Below, piece by piece: positions 56,418 to 64,000 of a DNA stretch of 64,000 bases. Below the pieces are notes generated by a model. It saw only the letters and a program-made list of their open reading frames with translations. It did no database searches and was not told the origin of the DNA. The translations under genes were made by a program, and so were the position numbers. Origin of the DNA: Nostocoides sp. F2B08 (GTDB taxonomy: Bacteria > Actinomycetota > Actinomycetes > Actinomycetales > Dermatophilaceae); assembly GCF_009184895.1 (NCBI RefSeq), contig NZ_WESE01000004.1, forward strand, positions 62,001 through 126,000, read 5' to 3'. Positions within the stretch are counted from its first letter, which is position 1. Each line of letters begins with the position of its first letter.

Positions 56418-57209
56418 CTAGCCGCCATCGACGCCGGACGCCGCCAGGCGCTCGGCGACGACTGCGAACTTGCGCATCCGTCCCGCACCCAGCCACTCCG
56501 CCCAGAGCCGGTGTGAGTCGACCAGGCCCGCCACCGCGTCCCGGTCGGGACCGGGCGGCACGGTCGCGAGCAGGGTCGCGTAGGACGCAGCCAGGGCGCG
56601 GGCCGTGTCGGCGTGGCTCCGAGTCCAGTCCTCTGTCCAGACCGTCCTCAGGCCCAGCTCCTCGAGCGCCGAACCGAGATCGTGGAGAGTCACCGGCCAC
56701 ACGGTCTCCGATGCCGGCATGCGCTCCCGCTCGAGCCCATTCAGAGGGGGGCCCTCCTCGACGGTGAACACGAACCGCCCGCCCCCGTGGAGCGCCGAGG
56801 CGATCGCCTGCAGGAGGACGTCCTTGGCTCGGAAGGCCAGCATCGTCTCGAGGAGGACGACGACGTCGAACCGTCCCGCCGGAAGCGGTGGCACCCGGGC
56901 CACCTCGAAGTCGGCTCTGAGCCCCGCTGAGGCCGCGCCCTCCCTGGCGAGGGCGATGGAGTCGGCGTCCGCGTCCACGCCGAGGTATTGGCACTCGTAG
57001 TCGCCGACGAGCAGGAGTCCGGGCCCGGCGACTCCGCAGCACAGGTCCACGACGCGGGTGCCGGCGACGATGCCTCCGTGGTGGGCCAGCGTGCGGATCT
57101 GGCGAGCCGTCACGAAGCTCTCCTGTCCGACGAACTCGCCGGGCGGAAAGGCGACCCGACGGGCCTCCCGCAGGGCCTCACCCAGCGGAGCCGTCCCAGC
57201 GGTCGTCAC
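56418..57209 (-). CDS. SAM-dependent methyltransferase, end of the envelope/pterin-type cluster
   Basis: This 263-residue class I methyltransferase has motif I VVDLCCGVAGPGLLLV (residues about 56-71), motif II YLGVDADADSIALARE, post-II FEVARVPPLPAGRFDVVVLLETMLAF, and VFTVEEGPPLNGLE. The acceptor is unknown; the fold resembles sarcosine/glycine-type or lipid methyltransferases. GTG 57209 overlaps the upstream fusion-gene stop by 4 nt, so it is the last gene of the run that starts beyond the right edge of the window. Confidence 0.88.
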   Translation of the reverse strand: MTTAGTAPLGEALREARRVAFPPGEFVGQESFVTARQIRTLAHHGGIVAGTRVVDLCCGVAGPGLLLVGDYECQYLGVDADADSIALAREGAASAGLRADFEVARVPPLPAGRFDVVVLLETMLAFRAKDVLLQAIASALHGGGRFVFTVEEGPPLNGLERERMPASETVWPVTLHDLGSALEELGLRTVWTEDWTRSHADTARALAASYATLLATVPPGPDRDAVAGLVDSHRLWAEWLGAGRMRKFAVVAERLAASGVDGG

Positions 57210-59689
57210 CGTCCGCCCTCCGGTTCGGAGTAGGTCGTCAGGAACCGGTCCCGGAACTCGTCCATAGACAAGACCGGCGCGTCGCCCGACGGACGGAGTC
57301 CCGCCTCCCAACTCCAGCCGTCGATGCGCTCCAGCACCGCCGGGTCGTCGGCGATGACGGTCACCGGCACATCCCGGTTGCCACCGAAGCCGCTGACGAT
57401 CGTGCCGGGCTGATGGTCACCCACGAGCAGGACGACCATCCCGTCCCCCTCGTCTCGGATGAAGTCGAGAACGGTCCGCAGGGAGTACTGCAACGCAGAC
57501 CGGTATGCGTCCGGCACCTGGTCGCGGTCGCTCCACAGGTCGGCGGCCGACGTGGCCTCGGCGCGAATCGACTCGAAGACGGATCCGTCGCCGAGGTCGG
57601 AGGGATCGACGGCGGTGGGCAGCGGGGCCCACGGTCCGTGGCTGGAGGTCAGGGCGACATGGGCCATCACGGGCGGCCGGGTCGGGTCGGTCAGCTCCTG
57701 GCGCATGAACGAGGTGAGAGCGAACTGGTCGGGCATCCCCGAGAAGCCGAAGCTCGGGCCCGCGTAACCGAGGTTCGTGCGGTCGTAGACGGTGTCCACG
57801 TCGTAGAACCGCTGGCCCTCGGGCCATGGCTCCCGGTTCGAGGGCAGCACGGCCACGGTTCGCCACCCGTTCCGGGCGAAGATAGACGTGATCGTGCTGC
57901 GTGAGCTCGAGAGCACCCGCTCGTAGCGCTGCTGGTCGTCGACCCAGAGCCCGGACATGAGCGACGCGTGGGCGAGCCAGCTGCTCCCTCCGAACGTGGG
58001 CGAGGTCAGGTAGGCGCTCCTGGCGCGATATCCGTCGGCAGCCAGCTCCTCGGTGCCGGCGTCGAGCAGCGCACGCACCGGCGCCATGTCGGGTCCCTCG
58101 AGCGCGGCCCGGCCGTAGCTCTCGACGAAGACGACGACGACGTCCTTGCCTTGGAGAGCCGACAGCTCGCCGCTCGCCGGCTGCCGGAAGGCGTCGTCCG
58201 CGATGGCACGTTCGAACCGTCGCTGGTCGCGGATGGCATCCACCGTGGCCGTGACCTTGTCGACCGCGAACCGGCCTCCGTCGACCGAGGCGACCGAGCC
58301 GCCACCCGGTTCCAGGCGGATCCCCGTAGCGGCGAGGACGACCCACGCCACCGCCAGTGCGAGCACGACACCGGCACCGGCACGAGGGCGTCGGGTGAGC
58401 ACGCGGACGAGGCGCGCAGCGGCCAGAGGGACACCGACGAGCGCGACCACGGCCACCAGGCCCGCGCCCAGCAGCGCACCTCGGGCCGCCCATGGACCGG
58501 CCGACTCCCGGACGAAGTCCAGACCGGACCCCAGCAACGCGAGGTCGGTGACCACGGTGAAGGGCCGGTCCAGCACGGCGAAGGCGCCGATGTCGAGGAC
58601 CTTGAGGACGGCGATCAGGCCGAGGAGGGCGCCGGCGACCCCGGAGAACAGCCGAGCAGACCGCGCGGAGCGCGATGCCAGCACGAGCACCAGACCGGCC
58701 ACCACCAGGGCCTCGACGGGCAGCCGGGCGAAGGCGAGCGGGGTGATGCGATCCGGTCGGGTCGGCGCCAGCAGCGCGAACCACACGACGACAGCGGCAA
58801 GGACGGCGAGGCCAGTCCCGACGACTCGCGCGAAAGCCGTGGTGCGTCGCGGCGTCTGCGCGGCCGAGTCGACCTCCTCGGCTCGTCTCCGCCACAGCCA
58901 CACGACGTCGCGACCGAAGGACTCGGCCAGCAGTGCGAGCGCGGCGAGCACGACGGCGCTCCTGGTCCACGGAGGGAGAAGGTCGATGAGAGCGATGACG
59001 AGCCCGACACCGACAGCAGCCGTGACGATCTTGCGCCAGTAGCGGTACGGGAGGGGACGCCGCATCCACGGCAGCAGGATCCCGGCCAGCGCGAAGACGT
59101 ATCTCGCGAGCCCTGCGACGACGACCCACCACCCGAGGACGGAACCGACCGCCACGCTGAGCACGAGGATGAGGAAGGCGTCGACCTCGCCGTCGAGTCG
59201 AGCGCCCAGGGTCGTCGCCGTCCCGGTCCGCCTCGCGAGCCATCCGTCGACGGCGTCGAGGCCGAGGGCGGGGATGGCCAGGACCAGGATCGCGGGGGTC
59301 ACGGGGTGGCCGGCGATGAGCTCGGCCGTCAGGGCCGCCACGCCGCAGGCCAGGACGGCTCGGCCCACGGTGACGCCGTCCGCGGGCCCGAGCCCGGAGC
59401 TACCGGCCCTGGACGCGGCTCGGGCGAGACCGACGCTCAACGCGACCCCGCATACCGATCCGATGACGAGCGCGACCGGGGCCAGGCCCACGAGGCGGGA
59501 GAGTGCGGCGAGGAGGACGGTGAGGGAGACGAGCCCGAGCGTGATCGTGAGCGCGACCGGCATCCGCCGCCGAGGGACCCGCCGGCCGGTGCGCACCTCG
59601 GCGACCCGGCCGGCGTCGACGGACTCCTGTGCCGTCACGTCGGCCGACACGTCATCAGCTCCCTGGTCTCTCGATTCACGTCCAGCCAT
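57206..59689 (-). CDS. fused CDP-alcohol phosphotransferase and alkaline-phosphatase-superfamily membrane enzyme
   Basis: This 827-residue protein joins two enzymes. Residues about 100-270 are a CDP-alcohol phosphatidyltransferase with a complete active site: Asp145, Asp148-Gly149, Ala152-Arg153, Gly162, Asp166 and Asp170. Residues about 290-480 add several membrane helices. The C-terminal part (from about 515) is a sulfatase/phosphoglycerol-transferase-type domain outside the membrane, with metal-site residues in VFVESYG, the nucleophile region TFGGSSWLAHASLMSG, His of SSHGPW and Asp-His of VGDHQPG. Together they suggest making and transferring a lipid-linked phospho-alcohol to an extracellular acceptor. 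ATG 59689 overlaps the reductase stop by 14 nt. Confidence 0.85.
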   Translation of the reverse strand: MAGRESRDQGADDVSADVTAQESVDAGRVAEVRTGRRVPRRRMPVALTITLGLVSLTVLLAALSRLVGLAPVALVIGSVCGVALSVGLARAASRAGSSGLGPADGVTVGRAVLACGVAALTAELIAGHPVTPAILVLAIPALGLDAVDGWLARRTGTATTLGARLDGEVDAFLILVLSVAVGSVLGWWVVVAGLARYVFALAGILLPWMRRPLPYRYWRKIVTAAVGVGLVIALIDLLPPWTRSAVVLAALALLAESFGRDVVWLWRRRAEEVDSAAQTPRRTTAFARVVGTGLAVLAAVVVWFALLAPTRPDRITPLAFARLPVEALVVAGLVLVLASRSARSARLFSGVAGALLGLIAVLKVLDIGAFAVLDRPFTVVTDLALLGSGLDFVRESAGPWAARGALLGAGLVAVVALVGVPLAAARLVRVLTRRPRAGAGVVLALAVAWVVLAATGIRLEPGGGSVASVDGGRFAVDKVTATVDAIRDQRRFERAIADDAFRQPASGELSALQGKDVVVVFVESYGRAALEGPDMAPVRALLDAGTEELAADGYRARSAYLTSPTFGGSSWLAHASLMSGLWVDDQQRYERVLSSSRSTITSIFARNGWRTVAVLPSNREPWPEGQRFYDVDTVYDRTNLGYAGPSFGFSGMPDQFALTSFMRQELTDPTRPPVMAHVALTSSHGPWAPLPTAVDPSDLGDGSVFESIRAEATSAADLWSDRDQVPDAYRSALQYSLRTVLDFIRDEGDGMVVLLVGDHQPGTIVSGFGGNRDVPVTVIADDPAVLERIDGWSWEAGLRPSGDAPVLSMDEFRDRFLTTYSEPEGGR

Positions 59690-60404
59690 CTCCCGCCGTC
59701 TCGGTGTCGAACCGGTCGGAGAGCGCGTAGCGCAGCAGCACCACGTCACCGAGGCGGCAGACGTCCGCCAGGCGGGCGCGTCGGTCACGGTTCCATGGGA
59801 AGTCCCCGTCACCGACCACGCGCGGAGCGCGCGAGTCGCCGACGAAGAAGGGGGCGATGACGACCTGGAGCTCGTCGGCGAGACCTCCCGTGAGGAACTG
59901 GGTGTGCACGGCCTGCCCACCCTCGACGAGGAGCCGCCGCACCCCCCGGGCGGCGAGGTCGGCGCTGACCGTGGTCATGCTCGGAGCCGATCCGGCGTCG
60001 ACGACGGTCGCCACCTCGCCCAGTTCGCGGCGGAGCCGGCCCGCGGAGGCGGAGGCGCAGTACACGAGCTTCTCGGCGTCTCCCGAGGCGAAGAATGCCG
60101 CGGTCGGGTCCAGCGAGGAGTGCCGGGTGACCGTCACCTTGTGCGGTGACGCCGGACGGCCCTCGGCGACCCTCTGGGCTCGCCGTGCCTCGCCTCGCAC
60201 GACGAGACGCGGGTTGTCCGTGCGGACCGTGACGGCACCGACGAGAATGGCGTCGCAGCTGGCGCGGACGGCGTCGACCCGGTCCAGGTCCTGGGCGTTG
60301 GACAGGACCAACCGCCTCTTCGTGCGGTCGTCGAGGTATCCGTCGAGCGACATGGCGCAGCTCAGCACCGTGTAGGGCAGGTCAGCGTCGGGCAGGTCAG
60401 GCAC
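59676..60404 (-). CDS. RibD C-terminal-type reductase (dihydrofolate-reductase fold)
   Basis: This 242-residue protein belongs to the RibD_C/pyrimidine-reductase family: LSCAMSLDGYLDD at the N-terminus, DAILVGAVTVRTDNPRLVVRG (substrate/NADPH site), VVDAGSAPSMTTV, and RRLLVEGGQAVHTQFL. RibD reduces the ribose of a GTP-derived pyrimidine to ribityl in flavin synthesis. Here it has no deaminase half and no rib neighbours, so it likely acts in a side pathway. Its start overlaps the flippase stop by 8 nt. Confidence 0.9.
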   Translation of the reverse strand: MPDLPDADLPYTVLSCAMSLDGYLDDRTKRRLVLSNAQDLDRVDAVRASCDAILVGAVTVRTDNPRLVVRGEARRAQRVAEGRPASPHKVTVTRHSSLDPTAAFFASGDAEKLVYCASASAGRLRRELGEVATVVDAGSAPSMTTVSADLAARGVRRLLVEGGQAVHTQFLTGGLADELQVVIAPFFVGDSRAPRVVGDGDFPWNRDRRARLADVCRLGDVVLLRYALSDRFDTETAGDGWT

Positions 60405-61374
60405 GGGCGCTCACCGCCGAGGTCCGCGATCGGCCGGCGAGGATGACGAACAGTCCTGGGAGCGCACCCACGAGGACCATCGATCCGTATGCGACGGAGA
60501 CCGCCAGCCCCTCGCTCGCCTGGGCGCCGGTCGCCGCGAAGACCCAGGCGGCCGCACCTTCGCGCGGGCCCCAGCCGGCGAGGCTGAGGGGCACGGCGGC
60601 GACGAGCAGCACGAGGACCGCGGCGATCACCAGGTCGGTGACCGGCATGGCGGTCCCCACTGCTCGGGCGGCGACCACGAAGGTCGCCACGTGCCCGGAG
60701 ATCGCGATCAGGGACGAGCCGAGGAGACCGAGGACCACGCGCGGCGAGGCGAGAGCGCGGCCGTCGGCGAGCGCGACCGTCGCCACCCGCGTCGGAAGGC
60801 CGCTCTTCCCCTCGGGCCACTTCACGGCAATAGGACCGAAACGACGAACGGTCGGACGCGGCTGAGACCCGGCGTGCCGCACGGTTGCGATCGCGAGGAG
60901 CGCGATGAGGACCAGCCCTCCTGCAACCAGGGCCCGAGCAGGTTCGGGCACCGGAGTGAACAGCACCGCCAGCACAGCGAGCCCGATGAGGACCACCTGC
61001 CCGCTGACCCGTTCCCACACGACGGCGCGCAGCGCGACCCGGACGTCGTCGACCCGACGCCCGTGCCGGACGCCCCGGTCGACGTCCCCGAGAACCCCAC
61101 CGGGCAGGGTGAGGTTGAGGAGCAGTGAGCGGTAGTACGACGCGACAGCCAAGGACAGCGGCAGCCCGGCGGACAACCGGTCGGCGACGAGCCGCCACCG
61201 CCATGCGGAGCACACGGTCGTCAGAGCGGCGAGCAGCACCCCCACGACCAGGGTCGCCGTGTCCAGCGCCCGCAGACCTTCCCGGAACGCCGCTGCACCG
61301 ATCTGCGCGACGACCAGCCCGAGGATCACCGCACCGACCAGGGGCCGGATCCATCGCCATCCGGACGGTGTCAT
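60397..61374 (-). CDS. UPF0104/flippase-like integral membrane protein
   Basis: This 325-residue protein has about eight membrane helices and matches the lysylphosphatidylglycerol-synthase transmembrane (UPF0104) family: WRWRLVADRLSAGLPLSLAVASYYRSLLLNLTLPGGVLGDVDRG is the signature, with the conserved Asn-Pro-Gly-like NLTLPGGVLGD. The PLP/acyl-transfer domain of MprF is absent. In glycan or lipid clusters such proteins are thought to flip lipid-linked products. It overlaps the upstream methyltransferase by ATGA. Confidence 0.88.
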   Translation of the reverse strand: MTPSGWRWIRPLVGAVILGLVVAQIGAAAFREGLRALDTATLVVGVLLAALTTVCSAWRWRLVADRLSAGLPLSLAVASYYRSLLLNLTLPGGVLGDVDRGVRHGRRVDDVRVALRAVVWERVSGQVVLIGLAVLAVLFTPVPEPARALVAGGLVLIALLAIATVRHAGSQPRPTVRRFGPIAVKWPEGKSGLPTRVATVALADGRALASPRVVLGLLGSSLIAISGHVATFVVAARAVGTAMPVTDLVIAAVLVLLVAAVPLSLAGWGPREGAAAWVFAATGAQASEGLAVSVAYGSMVLVGALPGLFVILAGRSRTSAVSARA

Positions 61375-62201
61375 CCGGACCCCCGGGGGGTCGCCAGGAT
61401 GTCGACGTGGCCGACGGTGACCTCGAGGAGTCCGTCGACGAGCTGTTCGCGACGCAGAGCGAGATATGAGTCCGCGAACCCGCCCAGGCCCGGTCTCTGC
61501 TCGCATGCCGCACCGACCCAGCCGGCGAGCCACTCCTCCGTCAGCCGCCGGGTCTCGAATCCCAGCCGCCAGGGGCTCGAGGCCACCTCGACATCGGCCC
61601 GGCGGGCGGCGAACAGTTCCACCATCCGCCGCGGCGCATCGGGACCGAGGAGGGTCCGGCCATCGACGGTGCGACGCTGGTGGTCGTTGAAGGCGGACGC
61701 CAGCTCGGCATCGAGCGGATCCGGTGGCCAGAGCCCGACGTCCCCGGTGACGGACAGGGTGAGCAGGGCAGGGCAGCCCAGCCCGGTGCACAGGTCCACG
61801 AGCGTCGTCAGCTCGGCCAGAGTGAGGATGTCGGCCAGCGCGGACGTCGTCACGAGCGACGCTCCGCTGAGATCCCCCGGCACCAGTCGGGCCAGGTCTC
61901 CGGGCGCCACCTCGACGAGGACCGTGTGACCGTCAGGAGCCGCGGGCGGATGGGCTGCCGCGATCTCCAGAAGCGCCTCGTCGCGGTCGTGGAGCACCCA
62001 CCGCTGGGAGGTAGGCAGCCGGGGGGCGAGCCACCGACCCATCGAACCGCTCCCGGAACCGAGGTCGTGGATCTCGGCGGTCTCACCGTCGGGCAGCTTC
62101 GCGGACACCGAAGCCACGAGCCGGTCGGAGCGTGCGAGCGCGTCGGCCCGCTCCCGCAGCCGCAGCCAGTGCGGGGTGACGCTGCCGGGGACCGTCGTCA
62201 T
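61371..62201 (-). CDS. SAM-dependent methyltransferase
   Basis: This 276-residue protein has a class I SAM fold: EIHDLGSGSGSMGRWLAPRLP (residues about 43-63), WVLHDRDEALLEIAAAHPP, and SLVTTSALADILTLAELTTLVDLC. The long charged C-terminus (RRMVELFAARRADVEVASSPWRLG to EEWLAGWVGAACEQRP) suggests a specific small-molecule acceptor. It overlaps the glycosyltransferase by ATGA. Likely to methylate an intermediate of this pathway. Confidence 0.87.
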   Translation of the reverse strand: MTTVPGSVTPHWLRLRERADALARSDRLVASVSAKLPDGETAEIHDLGSGSGSMGRWLAPRLPTSQRWVLHDRDEALLEIAAAHPPAAPDGHTVLVEVAPGDLARLVPGDLSGASLVTTSALADILTLAELTTLVDLCTGLGCPALLTLSVTGDVGLWPPDPLDAELASAFNDHQRRTVDGRTLLGPDAPRRMVELFAARRADVEVASSPWRLGFETRRLTEEWLAGWVGAACEQRPGLGGFADSYLALRREQLVDGLLEVTVGHVDILATPRGSG

Positions 62202-63268
62202 GCGGCGGCCCGGCTGAGAACGGTGGAGATCGTGTGGCTGGTGTCGGACCAGTCGCGCAGGGTCGATCGCCGGGCGGCGGCCGCGGACCGCAGGTCGTCG
62301 CGCAGGTCGTGGTCGGTGAGCCACTCGCGGAGGGCCGATGCGAACGCCGCAGGCTGGGCCGGAGTGACGAGCAGGCCGGGACGCCGTCCGTCCGGCGCGG
62401 TCCCCAAGGCTTCGGGGACCCCTCCGACCGCTGCCGCGAGCACGGGGACCGCACGGGCCAGGGCCTCGGTGATCACCATCCCGTACGTCTCGAATCGGGA
62501 CGGGACGACCAGGAGGTCGACGTCGGCGTACTCCGCAGCCACCGCCTCCGGCGGCGCCGACCCCGTGAAGGTCAGCCGCTCGCCCAGCCCCAGGGCAACT
62601 CCCCGGGTCAGGACGCGGTCGACGAACCCGGGCTCGACGTCCAGGGCACCGACGCACCGGCCGGACCACGGGAGGTCGGCGTCCTCGGCCAGCGCCTCGA
62701 CGAGGACGTCCTGACCTTTCGTTGGGGTGATCGCACCCACGCACAGCAGTCGATGTCCACTTGCGCTCGGCACGGCCGGCTCGGCTGACGTCACCCCTGG
62801 AGAGGCGACCTGGATCCGCGAGGGGTCGACCGCATACGTCTCCACCAACCAGTCACGCGTCCACCGGCTCGTCGTGACGACTGTTGTCACCGCGTCGAGA
62901 ACGGTTCGCTCCGCCGCGCGAAGGTCGGCGCCGGCGCCGGCGGCTGTCTCGAGCCCGTGCGGAAGATGGACGAGCAGAACGAGGTGGAGGCGCCCACCGT
63001 GTGCGGCGACGACGGGCGCGGCGCGTGCGGTGAGCAGACCGTCGAGCAGCACGAGCTCCCCGTCCGGGATGCCGTGGAGCGCGCCGGCGAGCGAGTCGCG
63101 GAGGGTCGCTCCGGTCCCGGCCCGTGCCGAGCCCTCGACCAGGCGCTCGTGGACGGCCCAGCCGAGCCGTTCCAGGCCTGCGCATACCATGCGGTGATAC
63201 GTGTTCCCACCGCTGGGCCGCCGCGCGTCGGACACCTCCGCGGGGCCGACGACGTGCACGGCTCTCAC
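62198..63268 (-). CDS. GT4-family glycosyltransferase
   Basis: This 356-residue GT-B enzyme starts at GTG 63268. The N-terminal donor/acceptor region has [21 protein letters not shown]; the C-terminal donor site has [21 protein letters not shown] and the E-x7-E motif in [25 protein letters not shown]. It adds a sugar from a nucleotide donor to an unknown acceptor. GTGA overlap with the pterin-synthase-like gene shows tight coupling. Confidence 0.92.
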
Positions 63269-63660
63269 ACCGCTCGTTCGTAGGCGGCCCAGGCGATGTG
63301 CGACTCGTGCAGCGTGACCGAGAGGGAGCCGACATGGGCCACCCGACCCAGCTCGCCGGCCTGCATCCGGTCCGCCAGCCGATCCGCGACCACCTGAGCC
63401 AGCCGCTCGGTCGTCGTCGTCATCCCGGACAGGCTCGGGTCCTCGTCGAGGTTGCGGTAGGTCAGTCCACCGACGACCGCGGCGAGCGCCGCCGAAGCCG
63501 CCCCGATGTCGACGACGACCCCGTCGGCGTCCAGCGTCCCGGCGCGGAAGGTCGCATCGACGACGTAGGTCGCCCCGTGCAGTCCCTGCGCAGGGCCGAA
63601 GACCTCGCCGGGAAGGCTGTGGGCGATCATCATGTGGTCCCGCACCGTCACACTGAACAT
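63265..63660 (-). CDS. divergent 6-pyruvoyl-tetrahydropterin-synthase/QueD-family protein
   Basis: This 131-residue protein has the T-fold pattern [45 protein letters not shown] and the final [14 protein letters not shown] with the conserved Glu. Compared with QueD/PTPS, the catalytic Cys is missing, one zinc His (HGH becomes HGA) is lost, and the DHxxLN motif is replaced by TYRNLDE. GGAGGTGG precedes the ATG. It follows the alcohol dehydrogenase by 45 nt. It may act on a different substrate or as a binding protein. Confidence 0.85.
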
Positions 63661-63705
63661 CGGCCCACCTCCTGGCTCATTGGTACGTCGGTCGAACCCG
63701 GCTCG

Positions 63706-64000
63706 TCAATCGGAGCCGAGCCGATGGTCACGGTCGCCACCGCCCTCGGGTCGGACGTCCGCCGCATCGTCGGTGTAGGTGACGACGTGGCACACCGCAT
63801 CGAGCGTGCCATTCGCGAGGCAGGCCATCACCGCGGGCAGGTCGTCGAACGGCGAGGTGCCGCTCAGCAGAGCGTCGAAGGCCGGGTCCCGGAGCAGCTC
63901 GAGCGCGAGCCGCAGGCGGTCACCGGAAGTGCGCCGCGCCGACCGGGCAGGTGAGACCGTCCCGACCTGGCTGGAGCGGATCCGCAGCCGACCGGAGTGG
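63706..64000 (-). CDS. zinc-binding alcohol dehydrogenase family protein (C-terminal part only)
   Basis: Only the last 98 codons are present; the gene enters from the right edge. Reading from the edge, SGRLRIRSSQVGTVSPARSARRTSGDR and LRLALELLRDPAFDALLSG match the tail of medium-chain, zinc-dependent dehydrogenases (COG1063-like). The end is DDAADVRPEGGGDRDHRLGSD. It is the first visible gene of the leftward run and probably oxidises an alcohol or sugar intermediate. Confidence 0.75.
   Translation of the reverse strand, partial: HSGRLRIRSSQVGTVSPARSARRTSGDRLRLALELLRDPAFDALLSGTSPFDDLPAVMACLANGTLDAVCHVVTYTDDAADVRPEGGGDRDHRLGSD

Follow-up and report, generated by a model that had tools for sequence, protein, structure and literature searches.

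At its right end, the 64,000-nt stretch of Nostocoides sp. F2B08 DNA analysed here (contig NZ_WESE01000004.1, positions 62,001 to 126,000; hereafter the window) carries a run of eight minus-strand genes extending leftward from the edge. The first gene encodes a zinc-less medium-chain alcohol dehydrogenase (ADH) with MDR/BchC-like matches; it is cut by the window edge, covering 63706..64000 and continuing outside to ~64743 (contig position ~126743). It is followed by the genes for PTPS-IV, a T-fold protein orthologous to SCO6650/3D7J (63265..63660), a GT4 glycosyltransferase (62198..63268; PF00534, PF13692), an S-adenosylmethionine (SAM)-dependent methyltransferase with a conserved SAM motif (MT1; 61371..62201), a UPF0104/LPG_synthase_TM flippase-like membrane protein (60397..61374; PF03706, E 1.8e-32), a RibD_C-type reductase without a deaminase domain (59676..60404; PF01872, E 5.2e-37), a fusion protein (57206..59689), and a second SAM methyltransferase (MT2; 56418..57209; PF13847, E 3.9e-11). 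The fusion comprises a CDP-alcohol phosphotransferase domain (CDP-OH_P_transf, 58937..59380; PF01066, E 2.8e-13), further membrane helices, and an LtaS-like phosphotransferase domain (57209..58333; PF00884-like, with ESYG, SPTFGG, SSHxPW and GDHQP motifs). Consecutive genes overlap, by 4 nt at the PTPS/GT4 junction, except for a 45-nt gap between the ADH and PTPS genes. This layout had been described in an original prediction made from the DNA letters, and the open reading frame coordinates bear it out; Pfam likewise agrees with its assignments for the PTPS, GT4, UPF0104, RibD_C, CDP-OH_P_transf and MT2 proteins. The set probably builds a GTP-derived pterin-like compound that, in this strain, would be attached to a membrane lipid.

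The PTPS homologue, originally labelled QueD/PTPS-like, belongs to the PTPS family, and its sole PDB match is 3d7j_A (E 7.3e-51 over residues 1-130). It carries the FGPAQ signature of PTPS-IV in the form EVFGPAQ. In an alignment of 124 copies, in which a few genomes are counted twice, the F, G and A of this signature were invariant and P and Q were found in 122/124. The first zinc His and Glu119, which we take to be the residue anchoring the 2-amino-4-oxo (pterin) ring in the T-fold, were unchanged in 124/124, while the positions of the catalytic Cys and the last zinc ligand were always Ala; the CxxxHGH motif was absent, with AxxxHGA in every copy. Since the catalytic Cys and a zinc ligand are lost, PTPS-IV should not use QueD-type zinc chemistry. 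The QueD or zinc-PTPS role, and with it the QueD half of the label, was therefore rejected on these losses and on a score of 35.5 bits against the QueD model TIGR03367, whose cut-off is 89.25.

The dehydrogenase had been called a zinc enzyme. No ADH_N (PF08240) match was detected in it at E 0.001, and by eye a conserved KYGY replaces the GHE-type zinc motif, with no recognisable zinc motif present, so that "zinc ADH" looks like a misnomer. For the RibD_C protein, the top-scoring NCBIfam model was TIGR01508 (archaeal-type diaminopyrimidine reductase), yet its 127.8 bits fell below the cut-off of 186.45; TIGR00326 (bifunctional RibD) reached 77.2 bits against a cut-off of 156.35, through the reductase part only. 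The PDB ranking was headed by 5xv5, a "conserved protein" that we take to be archaeal Rib7, followed by 6p8c, named as a diaminopyrimidine reductase, and then by Rv2671, 2azn and bacterial RibD. The cluster resembles the archaeal and fungal riboflavin branch, in which a Rib7-type enzyme reduces before deamination, in its deaminase-free reductase and its expected diaminopyrimidine intermediate. Unlike that branch, it has no deaminase, lumazine synthase or riboflavin synthase.

On the lipid side, the CDP-alcohol domain contains the complete DxxDGxxAR...GxxxDxxxD motif, invariant in six fused relatives. The C-terminal part of the fusion, previously described as a phosphatase, turned out to have an LtaS-type phosphotransferase fold. 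Sequence searches of the PDB with this domain gave no match. Modelled alone, from 25 relatives, it reached a pLDDT of 87 (the full-length fusion model, with a pLDDT of 45, was not used), and the top PDB matches of the model were LtaP and LtaS, then GacH, EptC and MCR-1 (TM-score ~0.5, identity 10-16%). Motifs resembling those of the Glu, Thr, His and Asp-His catalytic site are conserved among the relatives, a likeness read at the level of motifs. By fold, the C-terminal domain is an LtaS-like phosphotransferase, with that activity predicted. In 7 loci a single reading frame covers both the CDP-alcohol and the LtaS-like domain; in 12 more the two adjoin, and in 7 they sit at opposite cluster ends. 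This arrangement suggests consecutive steps. This recalls lipoteichoic acid synthesis, in which PgsA makes the donor lipid and LtaS transfers the head group, although here the two transferases are often one protein, pteridine-type genes stand in the operon, and identity to LtaS is only 12-16%. MT1 has no Pfam match; its DLGxGxG SAM motif is conserved in 18 relatives.

To assess the joint conservation of the neighbours, which was the main check attached to the original prediction, the 80 closest PTPS loci in GTDB contigs were each scanned with all eight proteins, and frequencies were taken from 64 actinobacterial loci whose PTPS gene has 4.5 kb or more of upstream and 7 kb or more of downstream sequence. 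Because similarity to PTPS decided which loci entered the set, and because it contains too many Streptomyces and Micromonospora, the percentages do not describe independent samples. ADH was found in 63/64 loci (98%), directly upstream of PTPS in 59, and GT4 in 63/64 (98%), directly downstream in all 63. The flippase was present in 62/64 (97%) and the CDP-alcohol transferase in 97%, so that conservation held at 97% or above for these four neighbours. MT1 followed in 57/64 (89%), GTP cyclohydrolase II in 81%, RibD_C in 61%, creatininase in 45% and the LtaS-like domain in 36%. Since the same neighbours recur in relatives, the eight-gene run is not due to chance, and a single biosynthetic operon is its best explanation. 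The predicted MT2 gene is present but does not belong to the conserved core (2/64 loci, 3%); besides the window, it accompanies the cluster only in Knoellia and in one Thermoleophilia metagenome-assembled genome (L003:17.0-17.7 kb, L046:16.9-17.6 kb).

The cluster is patchily distributed: a PTPS match was found in 45/297 genomes of a class-wide sample (43 of them strong), including 1/7 other listed genomes of the window's family. Streptomyces, Micromonospora and Actinoplanes often carry the gene set, which also occurs in rhizobia; no relatives were found in viral contigs. One contig labelled Burkholderiaceae (L017) bears an actinobacterial-like cluster with a PTPS 68% identical and a fused CDP-alcohol/LtaS-like gene, and its label is probably a binning error. 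Streptomyces also has lone PTPS-IV genes outside the cluster (L120:10001-10426, L127:9001-9399, L074:10001-10396), one of which adjoins a MEKHLA-domain protein and cupins.

As a check, the original prediction proposed looking for GTP cyclohydrolase or creatininase-type genes past the right edge of the window. A divergent ABC transporter lies past ADH and neither gene is there, but both occur in the clusters of relatives. In these, the cyclohydrolase switch residue was Tyr in 29/29 clusters without creatininase, whereas in creatininase-bearing clusters it was Met (22) or His (7, Actinomadura) and Tyr in 0/29. This match between creatininase and loss of the switch Tyr points to entry through a diaminopyrimidine. 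In SCO6655, a formyl-product GTP cyclohydrolase, Met as the switch residue causes the formyl intermediate to be released. BrbF, a creatininase-family formamidase, removes the formyl group from this intermediate and serves riboflavin synthesis (PMC9478397). In relatives' clusters, too, a Met-type cyclohydrolase stands with a partner of the creatininase family, whereas both are missing from the window genome. It gave no creatininase match in a search run without a positive control, and the formyl-product cyclohydrolase and formamidase pair was found in relatives only. Its one RibBA has Tyr at the switch position and lies, like its bifunctional RibD and GTP cyclohydrolase I, on other contigs. The cluster can therefore draw on the housekeeping supply, and the operon is not the host's riboflavin or folate pathway. 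As for the reductase, creatininase was present in 22/25 loci without a recognised RibD_C gene, and in one Streptomyces group it adjoins a longer, different RibD_C protein (L008, L016, L023, L035, L063, L071, L077; ~12.9-14.1 kb).

Proteobacterial occurrences come from annotated plasmids. The set is present on Rhizobium, Agrobacterium and Peteryoungia plasmids and on a Thiodictyon plasmid, the last with no flippase match; four proteobacterial cyclohydrolases have Tyr at the switch residue. All four plasmid clusters contain a cytochrome b gene, assigned by Pfam to the b561 family in Agrobacterium, and the product might have a redox function, given this adjoining gene. In the clusters of the rhizobia and Thiodictyon, the b561-type gene lies next to RibD (L115:11528-12085, L116:12026-12565, L121:12011-12544, L123:11055-11582). 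Smaller versions occur in Neorhizobium and Methylosinus, where mdoH glucosyltransferase genes directly adjoin core genes on plasmids (L117:6079-7881, L122:5098-7011). Rhodobacterales versions carry a ribokinase/PfkB-type kinase in place of the lipid genes (L118:10997-11887, L124:5834-6754).

Taken together, the data support a conserved route leading from a GTP-derived diaminopyrimidine to a modified ring, which most lineages would carry further to a phospholipid. In the window genome, the host RibBA would turn GTP into 2,5-diamino-6-ribosylamino-pyrimidinone 5'-phosphate; in relatives this step would fall to the cluster cyclohydrolase II, assisted by the creatininase-type formamidase where the cyclohydrolase stops at the formyl compound. 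The RibD_C protein may then reduce this product to the ribityl compound without deamination, and the zinc-less dehydrogenase may oxidise a side-chain hydroxyl, possibly at C2'. Oxidation at C2' could enable closure of a dihydroneopterin-type ring by the 5-amino group, in place of the Amadori rearrangement that GTP cyclohydrolase I performs, and reduction followed by such closure would explain why ADH and the PTPS homologue travel together. Ring closure is the most speculative step and is put forward tentatively, as rather doubtful; GTP entry and lipid exit are better supported. PTPS-IV would act on, or hold, the 2-amino-4-oxo ring without zinc chemistry, MT1 would methylate the ring and GT4 would glycosylate it. 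The CDP-alcohol domain would join the product to CDP-diacylglycerol, making it a phospholipid head group. The UPF0104 protein would bring the product to the other side of the membrane, where the LtaS-like domain would hand the phospho-head group on to an external acceptor or set it free. The glycosylation step has a parallel in cyanobacterial pterin glycosides, made by UDP-glucose:tetrahydrobiopterin glucosyltransferase, in that a PTPS homologue accompanies a GT4-type glycosyltransferase; the similarity is weak (E 5e-5), and that route, which has no lipid genes, relies on GTP cyclohydrolase I together with a zinc PTPS.

Given that the neighbours are conserved and that cyclohydrolase and creatininase occur in relatives' clusters, a GTP-derived ribityl- or pterin-like unit on a lipid stays the best reading. 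For the whole path from GTP to the lipid-linked pterin-like unit, with product and step order as we infer them, we see about an even chance. Several observations weigh against it. The RibD_C protein scores under the curated NCBIfam cut-offs; the association of creatininase with the switch residue rests on about two lineages; and the substrate of the CDP-alcohol domain could be an ordinary alcohol. Moreover, many Streptomyces and Actinomadura clusters have no RibD_C gene in the stretch seen, clusters of the same genera have no LtaS-like gene there, and the Rhodobacterales plasmids have ADH, PTPS-IV, MT1 and RibD without a CDP-alcohol gene, which means that lipid attachment is not universal. The same plasmids, with their ribokinase-like gene, suggest that the core (cyclohydrolase, reductase, ADH, PTPS-IV, MT1 and mostly GT4) might yield a soluble metabolite of pterin or pyrimidine type while the lipid genes form a separate, co-travelling tailoring or envelope module, as do the Neorhizobium and Methylosinus versions, with no CDP-alcohol gene among the listed genes. 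We consider this possible but on balance unlikely, as the CDP-alcohol transferase and flippase recur almost throughout the actinobacterial loci and are found in rhizobial clusters.

The LtaS-like fold, the best match of the Agrobacterium CDP-alcohol relative to PgsA, and the presence of teichoic-acid makers among the host phyla would also fit a teichoic-acid-like polymer operon, whose GT4, flippase, CDP-alcohol and LtaS-like domains would place an ordinary polyol phosphate on the surface, with PTPS and RibD homologues recruited to unrelated sugar-alcohol chemistry. Such an operon would not account for the frequency of GTP cyclohydrolase II, the match of creatininase to its product type, or the pterin-anchoring Glu kept in PTPS-IV, and we regard it as improbable. 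Finally, annotation pipelines name members QueD, RibD and RibA, as if a special pathway had been read into ordinary riboflavin, folate or queuosine genes. A QueD, riboflavin or folate role is ruled out by the absent CxxxHGH motif, the missed QueD and RibD equivalog cut-offs and the separate housekeeping genes; already contradicted, this explanation is given almost no weight.

The lipid-linked pterin-like reading builds on families already in the literature. The PTPS-IV family of SCO6650 (3D7J), with its FGPAQ signature and PF00925 and PF01872 neighbours, has been published without a function, and the accessible text is silent on an accompanying ADH, GT4, methyltransferase, flippase, CDP-alcohol or LtaS-like gene (PMC5445326). 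The original suggestion that the pathway could be undescribed holds only with a qualification: no description of the whole combination was found in the open literature searched, but PTPS-IV with these two neighbour families was already known; the function of the whole set is proposed here with moderate confidence. Published expression data give hints: differentiated mycelium shows raised expression of a group of genes that includes SCO6652 (PMC3610822), and SCO6655 appears in a list of genes whose expression mostly rises in stationary phase (PMC2853524); from closeness in gene number, we infer that both are members of the SCO6650 cluster.

More speculatively, and with a smaller likelihood than the pathway itself, the operon may represent a new class of lipid or envelope decoration, in which the synthesis of a methylated, glycosylated GTP-derived pterin-like ring avoids the Amadori step by way of cyclohydrolase II, a reduction and a re-oxidation; it would have spread between phyla partly by plasmid and might serve as a membrane redox carrier in the cytochrome b561 clusters. 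In rhizobia, members of the set are misleadingly annotated as QueD, zinc ADH or sulfatase. If the proposal is true, pteridine chemistry would be joined to phospholipid head groups, a link that we know from no characterised pathway, and the orphans PTPS-IV (SCO6650) and SCO6655, both subjects of earlier work by others, would be placed in one shared pathway with a concrete product class to seek.

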